In this document: piece by piece, positions 4,526-8,096 of the stretch | Position numbering within the stretch: the first letter of the stretch is position 1 | Layout of the letters: every line of letters starts with the position of its first letter | NCBI GenBank assembly: GCA_001871075.1 | Contig: MNUP01000037.1 | Location: 1 to 8,197 of the forward strand | DNA: 8,197 bases | From: Candidatus Desantisbacteria bacterium CG1_02_49_89 | Lineage (GTDB): Bacteria > Desantisbacteria > UBA1551 | Direction of reading: 5' to 3' | Made by a program: the position numbers and the translations under genes | The notes under the pieces: generated by a model | Databases searched by the model: none | What the model saw: only the letters and a program-made list of their open reading frames with translations | What the model was told of the DNA's origin: nothing

Positions 4526-5971
4526 TCACGCTTTGCGGAAGATCGTAACCTTCATCACCTTCTTTGTTTCCTGGGTTATCTTGAATTCCTCGCTTATCCT
4601 GTAACCCACAACCCATAAAATATCGTTCCCGCTCACAAGCAGCGGTATTCTCTCCCTCATATCCCTGGGCACCTTGCGGTCTATGAGAAAATCGGAAAGC
4701 TTCTTGTGCCCCTTGGCGCCCTGCGGGAAGAACCTGTCCCCGTCTTCCCTCATCCGCACGGAAAGCGTGGCACTTATTTTATCTGCGTTCAGGAACGCCG
4801 TGTCGTGCGTGGCCCGGTAGAAGTTGAACGGTTTATTCCTGTCGAAAACCACCTTCCTCAATATGTATCCCAGTTTTTCATTTTCCCTGCCTTTTTCTTC
4901 CCTCTTTTCCTGTTCCTGCCCGCCCCTGCTTTGATCGTGGCTGGTATGTCTTTCCACCGGTGCTGACGAAGCCGGCGGAGGACGCCTTCCCTTCGCGAAG
5001 ATCAGCCTGCTGTATTCCTTCCTCGCGTAGAGCCCATCAGGAAGGTCCAGGCTTGAACCGGACGGTTTTGCTTCAACGAGCACAAGAAGATCGGTTATGT
5101 GCACGTAGCTTAGCTGCAGGATGTTCCCCTTTGCCCTGCGCACTGCTTCCCTCAGGATCCTGGGCTTGATCGCCGGGGCAAGTTTTTCAAACTCCCTGAT
5201 ATTCAGCATTACCTCTTCGTGCCTGCCGTTCTTGAGTATGTGGCCCACGTGCCTCTGTGCCTGTGATTCAAGGTAAGCGTCTTCCTGCTGGATTATCATG
5301 CTGGTGCGGAAGAGCGTTTCCCTGATGTTGGGGTTGTATTCCTTGGCAAGGTACGGGATGAGTTCAAGCCTTATCTTGTTTCGCTCGTATACGGTCTGCA
5401 GGTTCGTGGAATCAACGCAGAAAGTAAGTTTGTTCTCTTCGAGGAATTTCAGCAGTTCTTCTTTAGAGCATTCAATAAGCGGCCTTATGTAATTCCCGTT
5501 CCTGGGAAGGATCGCGCCAAGCCCGGTGTTGCCGCTTCCCCTCAGAAGGTTGAGCAGCAGTGTTTCTGCCTGGTCGCCCATTGTGTGGCCGAGCGCTATT
5601 TTATTGATGCTGTTCTTCTCGGCTGTCTCTTTGAAAAACGCGTAGCGCACTTCCCTGGCGCCGGCTTCCGGCGAGACCTTCTTTTCTTTTATGAAATCCG
5701 GGATGTTCTCGTGCTTTATAAAAAGAGGTATGCCGAGGCGGTTTGAAAGCTCACGGACAAAACGCACGTCCTTCTCCGCCTCAACAGGCCTTATCATGTG
5801 GTTAAGGTGCGCGATGAACAGCGACAGCCCGAATTCGCTCTGCAGGGACGTAAGTATGTAAGCGAGCGTCACCGAATCAGGCCCGCCTGAAACACCCATC
5901 ATAACGCGGTCGCCTTTTTCCAGCAGGTTATATTTTTTTATAGTTTCCCTGACCTTATCTCTAAGTTCCAT
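4526..5971 (-). CDS. tilS: tRNA(Ile)-lysidine synthase TilS
   Basis: TilS attaches lysine to C34 of the CAU anticodon of tRNA-Ile2, switching its reading from AUG to AUA. It is essential in most bacteria. The 481-residue product has the N-type ATP pyrophosphatase fold with the PP-loop SGGPDS at residues 28-33, HLNHMIR at 55-61, the family motif GHTMGDQAETLLLNLLRGSG at 128-147, and RPLIECSKEEL at 163-173. A middle helical domain (about 215-300) is followed by a charged, low-complexity linker (about 329-366, rich in Pro, Ser, Glu, Lys and Arg). The C-terminal tRNA-binding domain (about 403-478) contains MREDGDRFFPQGAKGHKKLS at 407-426. The length is slightly above the usual 430-460, mostly because of the linker. 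An AAGGGAG motif lies about 10 nt before the ATG at 5971. It heads the housekeeping cluster, ahead of ftsH. Confidence 0.97.
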   Translation of the reverse strand: MELRDKVRETIKKYNLLEKGDRVMMGVSGGPDSVTLAYILTSLQSEFGLSLFIAHLNHMIRPVEAEKDVRFVRELSNRLGIPLFIKHENIPDFIKEKKVSPEAGAREVRYAFFKETAEKNSINKIALGHTMGDQAETLLLNLLRGSGNTGLGAILPRNGNYIRPLIECSKEELLKFLEENKLTFCVDSTNLQTVYERNKIRLELIPYLAKEYNPNIRETLFRTSMIIQQEDAYLESQAQRHVGHILKNGRHEEVMLNIREFEKLAPAIKPRILREAVRRAKGNILQLSYVHITDLLVLVEAKPSGSSLDLPDGLYARKEYSRLIFAKGRRPPPASSAPVERHTSHDQSRGGQEQEKREEKGRENEKLGYILRKVVFDRNKPFNFYRATHDTAFLNADKISATLSVRMREDGDRFFPQGAKGHKKLSDFLIDRKVPRDMRERIPLLVSGNDILWVVGYRISEEFKITQETKKVMKVTIFRKA

Positions 5972-6182: not shown

Positions 6183-6199
6183 AAATAGCGGCGGACCGA
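6183..6199 (-). repeat. 17-bp copy of the tRNA-Met 3' end (att-like direct repeat)
   Basis: AAATAGCGGCGGACCGA at 6183-6199 is identical to 6385-6401, which covers the 3' acceptor strand, the 3' T-stem and the 3 nt beyond tRNA-Met. The copies are in the same orientation, 202 bp apart, and GTTAAAA lies just outside or at the edge of each. Duplicated tRNA 3' ends are the hallmark of integration at a tRNA gene, so this may be the far attachment site of a deleted or miniature element. An alternative is a partial duplication by slippage. Confidence 0.6.
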
Positions 6200-6271: not shown

Positions 6272-6323
6272 ACCGAGAATGTTGAACTGAAAGTTCAAAG
6301 TTCCGCTCTCCGTTCTCATCGGT
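6272..6323. repeat. Composite stem-loop with inner 7-bp hairpin
   Basis: The inner stem TTGAACT (6282-6288) / AGTTCAA (6292-6298) closes on GAA. An outer imperfect stem pairs ACCGAGAA (6272-6279) with TTCTCATCGGT (6313-6323), leaving a small bulge. It is the most structured part of the 185-bp segment between the two tRNA 3'-end copies. Confidence 0.5.
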
Positions 6324-6338
6324 CCTTTGTATTTTTTC

Positions 6339-6366
6339 ACGCACGACGTATGACGCACGACGTGTT
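6339..6366. repeat. 14-bp (2 x 7) tandem tract
   Basis: The units are ACGCACG, ACGTATG, ACGCACG, ACGTGTT; the 11-mer ACGCACGACGT occurs twice, 14 bp apart. It begins 22 bp beyond the 3' end of tRNA-Met. Confidence 0.65.
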
Positions 6367-6387
6367 TTTCTTTTGCGGTAGTTAAAA

Positions 6388-6461
6388 TAGCGGCGGACCG
6401 ATTCGAACGGTCGACCCTACGGGTATGAGCCGTATGCTCTAACCAGCTGAGCTACGCCGCC
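6388..6461 (-). tRNA. Elongator tRNA-Met (anticodon CAU)
   Basis: All arms fold: acceptor GGCGGCG pairs with CGCCGCT (G1-U72 wobble), D-arm GCTC/GAGC, anticodon stem TACGG/CCGTA around the loop CTCATAC (anticodon CAT), variable loop GGGTC and T-stem GACCG/CGGTC around TTCGAAT, with discriminator A73. The total is 74 nt and CCA is not encoded. The start pairing rules out an initiator, which has an unpaired 1-72. The CAU anticodon could also be tRNA-Ile2, the TilS substrate, but the acceptor, the TACGG anticodon stem, the ATACC continuation and the CGCCGCTA end resemble elongator Met genes of Firmicutes as I recall them. The first 10 nt overlap the end of the recombinase gene. Confidence 0.93.
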
Positions 6462-8038
6462 ATTAGTTTTGGCTCGACATGCGCTTCGAACTTTCCTATA
6501 GGCAATCTAAATATTATTTCAACCTTCCCATCATGGCCTATTTTGACTTGTTTAAAGATGGCTCCAATCAGGTTCTTTTTTTCATTTATATCTGCCGCTT
6601 CGAAGTAATCATCAAATCTTTCAATAATGTCTTTTGTAAAATTAGTATCGGCTTCAGCGAGCTGTTGGTTGGAACGTTCAACCCTAATGTTATTAAGCTC
6701 TGCCCCAATTTTATTTTGCTTCGAAGATATGATTTCAAATTTCTCTGCAAAATTTTTCTTATCTATTTTTGATTCCTTGAATTGTTCGATTAAAGTCTTT
6801 TCTTGTCCTTCCAATATTTGTAAATTACTGTACAAAGATTTCTCGTTTCTGATAAGGTTTTCTAAATCGGGGCCTGTTTCTCTTTTAACTTCATCAACAA
6901 TCCTTTTTATTTCTGGTAACTTATTCTTCAATTTTTTCATTTGCATAATCAAAAACGGTTCAATAATTTCTTGACGGATGGACTTCACCTTACATTCTTT
7001 GCAATACTCTGTCTCTATGTCCCGACCGCGCTTCCATCGATTGCACCTGTAATACCTTTCAACAACTCCATTATCTCGGGTCTTACACCAACCTTCAAGT
7101 GTCATATCACAAGGTGTAAAATGGATTAAATTAGTGAATAAGTATTCGGCATTGTTGTGTTTTGTTAATTTCCCTGACCTATTTTTTATCTTTTCCTGAA
7201 CAGCATCAAAAATAGGTCTGCTTATTATCGGCTCATGATGGTCTTTTATTACAATCCAACGTTCAGGTTCGTTCTCGAATGTTCTTTTTTTACCTTCAAT
7301 CTTTTCAAAAAATGTCTTATTCCAGGCAAAGTCTCCGGCATATGCAGGATTTTTTAATATTTTCATAATAGTGTTTTGCGAGAATTGTTTTCTTAAGCGC
7401 GTTGTTATGCCAATGCTTTTTAAATAGCGGGGAAGCTTTCTCATTGTTCCCATATTTTCATAGAGATATTTTTCAAAAATCGTTTTTATTACACCAGAGC
7501 GTATCGGGTCTACCACAAATTTTTTATCAATCAACTTATATCCATCTGGTACATTCCCACCAAGGTAATTGCCCATGGTAGCGCTTTTTTCCATCCCCAG
7601 TTGGACCCTTTCAGCAATTGATTCCCTCTCCCATTCCGCGAAAACTGCAAGCATTCCCAAAAGAGCTTTTCCCGAAGAAGTCGTAGTGTCAAAGGACTCT
7701 GTTGCGCTTTTGAATCCTACCTCATTGGACTCAAAAGCGTCTTCCAAAAGCCACAATAAATCTCTTAACGACCTTGATAATCGGTCTAATCGATAGACAA
7801 GAACGATGTCAAACTTCCTGTGTTTGGCATCTTCAATCAATCTTGTCAGTTCGGGTCGATAAATATCTCTAGCGCTACATCCCGCGTCCTTATAAATATC
7901 AACGACTGTCCATTTTTGAAATTCCGCAAAACGTTTTAATGTGTCCTCTTGAGCATCTAGTGAAAATCCTGTCTTTGCTTGCTCATCCGAAGAAACACGA
8001 ATATAAAAAACTACCTTTTTCTTAGGGGTCTCCCGCAT
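6452..8038 (-). CDS. Large serine recombinase (site-specific integrase/resolvase family)
   Basis: This enzyme family cuts and rejoins DNA through a serine-DNA intermediate to integrate or excise mobile elements. From the ATG at 8038 the product is 528 residues. The resolvase domain (about 8-152) has FYIRVSSDEQ with catalytic Ser16, and YRLDRLSR at 82-89 with Arg86 and Arg89. The recombinase domain (about 160-288) contains KNPAYAGDFAWNKT. A zinc-ribbon region (about 298-350) has Cys310, 318, 332, 346 and 349, an unusual spacing. A coiled coil (about 367-462) precedes a C-terminal strand segment. The frame is open to 8077, but those upstream Met codons lie at or upstream of the promoter -10 box, whereas the ATG at 8038 has AAGGAG 9 nt upstream, so 8038 is chosen. 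The gene is visibly more AT-rich than the housekeeping genes, which supports transfer. Its last two codons and stop (GCG GCG TAG) are the first 9-10 nt of tRNA-Met. Confidence 0.93.
   Translation of the reverse strand: MRETPKKKVVFYIRVSSDEQAKTGFSLDAQEDTLKRFAEFQKWTVVDIYKDAGCSARDIYRPELTRLIEDAKHRKFDIVLVYRLDRLSRSLRDLLWLLEDAFESNEVGFKSATESFDTTTSSGKALLGMLAVFAEWERESIAERVQLGMEKSATMGNYLGGNVPDGYKLIDKKFVVDPIRSGVIKTIFEKYLYENMGTMRKLPRYLKSIGITTRLRKQFSQNTIMKILKNPAYAGDFAWNKTFFEKIEGKKRTFENEPERWIVIKDHHEPIISRPIFDAVQEKIKNRSGKLTKHNNAEYLFTNLIHFTPCDMTLEGWCKTRDNGVVERYYRCNRWKRGRDIETEYCKECKVKSIRQEIIEPFLIMQMKKLKNKLPEIKRIVDEVKRETGPDLENLIRNEKSLYSNLQILEGQEKTLIEQFKESKIDKKNFAEKFEIISSKQNKIGAELNNIRVERSNQQLAEADTNFTKDIIERFDDYFEAADINEKKNLIGAIFKQVKIGHDGKVEIIFRLPIGKFEAHVEPKLMAA
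6495..6522 (-). promoter_or_regulatory. Candidate tRNA-Met promoter inside the recombinase 3' end
   Basis: On the minus strand TTGAAA (6522-6517) is followed after 16 bp by TATAGG (6500-6495). Start of transcription would fall about 27 nt before the tRNA. It lies in recombinase coding sequence, so if real the element would bring its own promoter to the tRNA it interrupts. Matches are moderate and chance is a real alternative. Confidence 0.3.
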
Positions 8039-8047
8039 AGCAATCGA

Positions 8048-8053
8048 CTCCTT
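8048..8053 (-). promoter_or_regulatory. Recombinase ribosome binding site
   Basis: AAGGAG on the minus strand ends 9 nt before the ATG at 8038 and decides the start over the two upstream in-frame Met codons. Confidence 0.85.
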
Positions 8054-8067
8054 AATATATTTCATAT

Positions 8068-8096
8068 AGTATAACAAATAAAAGTAAAAAATGCAA
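8068..8096 (-). promoter_or_regulatory. Sigma-70-type promoter of the recombinase
   Basis: On the minus strand TTGCAT (8096-8091) is followed after exactly 17 bp by TATACT (8073-8068), with TGT just before the -10 as in an extended -10 promoter. Transcription would begin near 8061, giving a leader of about 22 nt containing the AAGGAG site. Bases 8097-8197 upstream are AT-rich with T-runs and show no gene or second promoter I can support. Confidence 0.7.

Follow-up and report, generated by a model that had tools for sequence, protein, structure and literature searches.

The window analysed here, which is an entire contig of 8197 bases (G000:C41) from a draft genome, very probably preserves a junction of an integrative element, at which an integrase recombined its attP with an attB at the start of a tRNA-Met gene. 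As reconstructed from sequence comparisons, the attP of the element would span the 3' end of its own integrase gene and would have recombined with an attB located in the first bases of the host elongator tRNA-Met gene, most likely at a GT corresponding to tRNA positions 7-8. With the seven initial bases of the tRNA duplicated in the attP, the tRNA would be rebuilt exactly, and the integrase gene would come to run in the same direction into the tRNA, which would supply its TAG stop codon. The far junction of such an element is expected to read host DNA, TGGCGGCGTA, about 9 nt and GTTTTGNCTCGAC.

A recombinase gene ending within tRNA-Met

The genes on the minus strand of the window are, in order, the recombinase, tRNA-Met, tilS, ftsH, folE, folP and pdxJ (Table 1). 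An earlier reading of the sequence alone had proposed that the recombinase ends within the 5' end of tRNA-Met in the same orientation, and the ORF coordinates and the tRNA predictions of ARAGORN and Rfam agree on this arrangement. The final codons of the recombinase are ATG GCG GCG TAG, with the G of the ATG being tRNA position 1, and the overlap comprises 10 nt. That the acceptor 5' strand is shared was likewise correctly recognized; however, the reach of the overlap to positions 8-9 of the tRNA had been set one base short, with the TAG (6452-6454) corresponding to positions 8-10 (U8 A9 G10).

The recombinase frame is open from 6452 to 8077 on the minus strand (541 aa), beginning with a TTG at 8077. 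The ATG at 8038, with an AAGGAG nine bases upstream (8048-8053), is the likelier start and results in a protein of 528 aa. Profile searches recovered PF00239 (E 1.7e-39) and PF07508 (E 4.5e-25), both over the cut-off, and the resulting architecture of a resolvase catalytic domain followed by PF07508 in a protein of 528-541 aa is that of the large serine recombinases, which span 450-700 aa. On the basis of these domains the ORF 6452-8077 is a large serine recombinase (serine integrase), predicted to catalyse attP x attB recombination. As its conserved part stops before the att core, the protein in the window is whole. In a recombinase tree it grouped with its counterpart from the related genome G001 (support 100), with the placement of the two relative to a long-branched tRNA-3' group being unsettled; an alignment of eight recombinases was too diverse for use as a search query. 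The gene has a GC of 0.37 and a GC3 of 0.35 as against 0.51-0.53 and 0.59-0.69 in the adjoining host genes, bearing out the earlier description of an AT-rich recombinase beside a higher-GC region, and this break in composition falls at the start of tRNA-Met.

On the other side of the tRNA there is an exact 17-bp direct repeat (6183-6199 and 6385-6401, 202 bp apart), consisting of the tRNA-Met 3' end and the three bases that follow it. Judged by its sequence, it resembles a scar that a second event left on the 3' side of tRNA-Met; no such copy was found at the equivalent site of G001 within the downstream part that was read. An Rfam match to MIR162_2 at 6310-6410 was far under the cut-off and was dismissed as chance.

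Table 1. Features of the window around the recombinase-tRNA junction
Feature	Coordinates	Strand	Basis and remarks
tilS, conserved host neighbour 3' of tRNA-Met	4526..5971	-	ORF, profile match; adjoins tRNA-Met in G001 too
tRNA-Met(CAT), elongator type, intact	6388..6461	-	ARAGORN 6387-6462; Rfam tRNA model 6388-6461, 65.6 bits
Putative host attB half (tRNA-Met D-arm side)	6428..6453	-	Comparison with empty site L054:2506-2582; limit approximate
Sequence shared by tRNA positions 1-10 and the 3' end of the recombinase gene, GGCGGCGTAG	6452..6461	-	ORF and tRNA calls
Large serine recombinase gene	6452..8038	-	ORF call, Pfam profiles, start-site reading
Shared att core TGGCGGCGTA (6453-6462) with A at 6463, common to the G001 attP	6453..6463	-	Comparison with G001
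Predicted crossover dinucleotide GT, tRNA positions 7-8	6454..6455	-	Symmetry centre of attP arms
attP arm motif GTCGAGCCAAAAC	6466..6478	-	Matches GTTTTGCCTCGAC of the G001 attP as an inverted repeat equally far from GT
Possible recombinase promoter	8068..8096	-	TATACT 8068-8073, TTGCAT 8091-8096; weak -35; read by eye, absent from promoter scan calls

The empty site and a free attP in a related genome

The comparison set for the phylum consists of one other genome, G001, of the same order and a different family, and both it and the genome of the window (G000) are draft assemblies. The sequence-only reading had suggested comparing the window with a relative carrying the tRNA-Met/tilS locus, and G001 does present an empty site. 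In its contig C37, ftsH, tilS and tRNA-Met occur in the same order as in the window, with a tilS that is 71% identical over its main segment, and no recombinase lies upstream of the tRNA. Instead, tRNA-Met is preceded by GATATAACCG, which differs from the DNA upstream of it in the window. Two marks of a tDNA island are seen, namely an intact tRNA at one junction in the window (Rfam 65.6 bits) and an unoccupied counterpart in the relative (L054:2506-2582). Given that the adjacency of tilS and tRNA-Met is kept in G001, the tRNA lies on the host side of the junction.

A second contig of G001, C50 (locus L055), encodes the recombinase that, of those found, comes closest to that of the window, the two being 38% identical. 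The 3' end of its gene contains ATGGCGGCGTA in the same reading frame as in the window, followed by CCGCAGTGGGTTTTGCCTCGAC, and there is no tRNA on that contig. The same core and frame are therefore common to both recombinase genes; however, the one in G001 extends 27 aa beyond the core, because TAC is present where the tRNA has TAG. The shorter sequence GGCGGCGTA has 8 copies in G001, only one of them in a tRNA and only one in a recombinase end. Taken together, the sequence features of C50 identify it as carrying the free attP of a related element that is unintegrated, unlike that of the window. The placement of an element boundary at the tRNA start, which had been put forward as conjecture, is thereby strengthened on two counts, the different DNA upstream of a recombinase-free tRNA-Met and the related free attP.

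The attP sites of characterised serine integrases are about 50 bp long and imperfectly symmetric about a central dinucleotide. When the left arm of the window was set against the right arm of C50, we noted an inverted repeat centred on the GT of GGCGGC-GT-A. The exact register gave 15 matches over the 21 positions beyond the core, against 8 or fewer at 20 other registers, and random arm pairs scored as well in 1 out of 200,000 cases. The left and right arms of the G001 attP itself match poorly (11/28), for which reason the symmetry of the att sites rests on the two elements jointly; it is here that the assignment is weakest. As the left arm of the window is an in-register inverted repeat of the right arm of attP, the junction in the window would be a hybrid of a P-half and a B-half, with C50 representing attP and C37 attB. 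A search of viral contigs with a pattern of arm and core gave a single match, in a phage gene with no adjacent recombinase or tRNA, which we took to be due to chance; the pattern of the opposite attP arm had no match in these contigs.

The recombinase of C50 sits among genes resembling those of mobile DNA. One of its neighbours (L055 16197-17297) is an AAA ATPase with weak matches to the Cdc6/Orc1 lid and C-terminal regions; an archaeal-type replication initiator on a bacterial mobile element would be unusual. Another region (L055 2429-4858) encodes a ThiF/E1-like protein (E 2.3e-32) beside small unassigned proteins, and from this gene content it could possibly be a ubiquitin-like conjugation operon carried as cargo by the element.

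Survey, search for the far junction and alternative explanations

We checked the 3' ends of 262 distinct serine recombinase ORFs, drawn from species genomes, viral contigs and relatives, for tRNA genes. The gene ends inside a tRNA gene in 17 of the 262, figures that are not population frequencies, given that the sample is biased to relatives of the queries and that viral contigs are often cut at att sites. In 16 of these the tRNA is on the opposite strand and the recombinase ends in its 3' end (L021, L159, L164, L195, L200, L204, L217, L226, L263, L265, L277, L278, L280, L281, L287 and L375), with representatives in Omnitrophota, Dojkabacteria, Bdellovibrionota, Chloroflexota, Verrucomicrobiota and Pseudomonadota among others. 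The window is the only one with a same-strand overlap at the tRNA 5' end (1/262). The convergent overlaps with tRNA 3' ends give rise to nonsense C-termini in the recombinases, such as GDRIRTCDP. These tRNA-targeting serine integrases look to be an under-described group, and serine-recombinase elements in tRNA genes are probably under-reported.

The other junction was sought within the assembly of the window. Neither the core with the P' arm nor the arm motif, each with up to 3 mismatches, detected a second junction there, and none emerged when all 19 exact GGCGGCGTA sites of the assembly were read individually. The window contig ends at 8197, and no overlap of its ends leads to another junction; neither cargo genes nor a repeated tRNA 5' end turned up elsewhere in the G000 assembly, and querying it with a protein from the G001 element gave no match. 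A dispersed short repeat around AGAGTCATNNNCNNNGTTCTGACYCGWA, without any Rfam match, was encountered in L250, L252 and about 20 further places of G000, and is followed by CCCTGTA...TACAGGG in the two copies that were read.

The missing second att end and cargo are what might be expected if the recombinase were a fixed, domesticated or decayed gene upstream of tRNA-Met, with a 10-nt overlap due to chance or gene packing. We consider this unlikely, as the gene is absent from the G001 site, has an intact reading frame and a foreign composition, and shares both the core and the arm symmetry with a free element far above chance, while none of the other 261 surveyed recombinase ORFs displays its arrangement. 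Even less probable is a true boundary lying elsewhere, with tRNA and recombinase both being part of a larger element or having been joined by an older rearrangement: the 17-bp copy of the tRNA 3' end located 202 bp downstream does point to a history of rearrangement on that side, but the adjacency of tilS and tRNA-Met is conserved in G001 and the composition changes at the start of the tRNA.

Since the shared core amounts to 11 bp and such elements can also occur in a free state, as G001 shows, one could also envisage an assembly chimera, in which the end of a plasmid-borne recombinase was joined to a tRNA contig via the shared 11 bases. This would be the most improbable of the alternatives, given that the 541-aa frame, the tRNA and tilS lie on one unbroken contig and that an overlap of 11 bp is far under the k-mers usually employed in assembly. 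We accordingly favor the junction of an integrated element at the tRNA-Met start.

Known systems and possible consequences for the tRNA and the integrase

The closest parallel to the window is provided by the DsiB recombinases of the Dehalococcoides ssrA islands (PMC3146451). These are also serine recombinases of about 540 aa whose elements reside in a stable RNA gene, and the integrase gene always overlaps att at its 3' end, with a stop codon only beyond att. The same crossing of att is seen here, with the TAG lying within the tRNA and the G001 homologue reading through attP. However, the DsiB elements occupy the 3' end of the tmRNA gene and encode the integrase on its complementary strand, whereas in the window the integrase is on the same strand as the RNA, enters the tRNA-Met 5' end, and has a stop codon belonging to the tRNA; it thus falls outside the ssrA type, which is defined by the 3' end of ssrA and an antisense integrase.

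Other serine recombinases with tRNA targets have been recorded. One study calls the use of tRNA genes by serine integrases rare, and lists eight Mycobacterium AICEs in tRNA-Leu along with phiRSM (PMC3218068). The latter, a filamentous phage, inserts at the 3' end of tRNA-Ser (PMC3816273), and differs from the present case in this respect, in its reverse orientation and in its resolvase/invertase-type enzyme. The Paracoccus prophage Pami6 is reported to combine a serine recombinase with tRNA-Met (PMC6536676), sharing even the target tRNA with the window. Islander, a 2014 survey that searched for tyrosine integrases only, described tRNA genes as not being known targets of serine integrases; 159 of its 3919 tyrosine-integrase islands were associated with 5' tDNA fragments (PMC4383910). 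The archaeal pTN3-like integrases similarly use the 5' half of tRNA genes (PMC8371274). Like the window, these two sets exemplify integration on the 5' side with restoration of the 5' part of the tRNA by the element; however, they depend on tyrosine recombinases, with a different chemistry and a different att structure.

The sequence-only reading had held that serine recombinases seldom use tRNA genes and that integration at the 5' end is unusual, and both views accord with this literature and with the survey. No published serine integrase at a same-strand tRNA 5' end was found in a literature search conducted mostly outside subscription journals. A serine integrase in an RNA gene, with its own gene crossing att, is already known; what is new, as far as we have checked, is the form at a tRNA 5' end on the same strand, in which the tRNA writes the stop codon. 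It provides a case of the target RNA gene writing the stop codon of the integrase.

The G000 assembly has 43 tRNA genes, three of them with a CAT anticodon, which we take from their sequence types to be an initiator, a tRNA-Ile2-like substrate of TilS and the elongator tRNA of the window. The latter is probably the sole elongator tRNA-Met of the genome, the assembly being 93.5% complete. Integration at tRNA positions 7-8 would shift the upstream DNA, and with it the promoter that serves the tRNA in the host, to the element's far end. Transcription of the tRNA would then depend either on read-through out of the integrase gene or on a promoter within the element; the simplest possibility is that the integrated tRNA would form the tail of the recombinase transcript. 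A sigma-70 scan of the minus strand between 6463 and 7069 detected no promoter-like site, with numbers no higher than in shuffled sequences, and is silent for or against a tRNA promoter in the recombinase gene. In the free form in G001, a strong hairpin followed by U residues is predicted about 200 bases past the recombinase core (-23.9 kcal/mol, z -5.3); it was missed by a simple terminator scan because its loop exceeds the length allowed by that scan. From this fold it is likely to be a terminator, which would also be displaced upon integration.

According to a review citing Williams 2002, almost all bacterial tRNAs at integration sites retain the promoter they had. By comparison, an element at the 5' end on the same strand must carry or replace the promoter of the tRNA. 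It is tempting to speculate, though we regard it as doubtful, that integration causes a joint rewiring, in which the promoter of the sole elongator tRNA-Met is displaced, leaving this tRNA as the tail of the integrase transcript, and in which the C-terminal tail that only the free form of the enzyme possesses (27 aa in G001) is cut off by the stop codon of the tRNA. If this were true, the host would be dependent on transcription from the element, and the enzyme would differ between its free and integrated states. An attB built from conserved parts of a tRNA, namely the acceptor and the D arm, is testable, and might serve in integration tools for many bacteria. The potential interest of the system thus lies in the control that the element may exert over an essential tRNA, together with the altered tail that its integrase would acquire.
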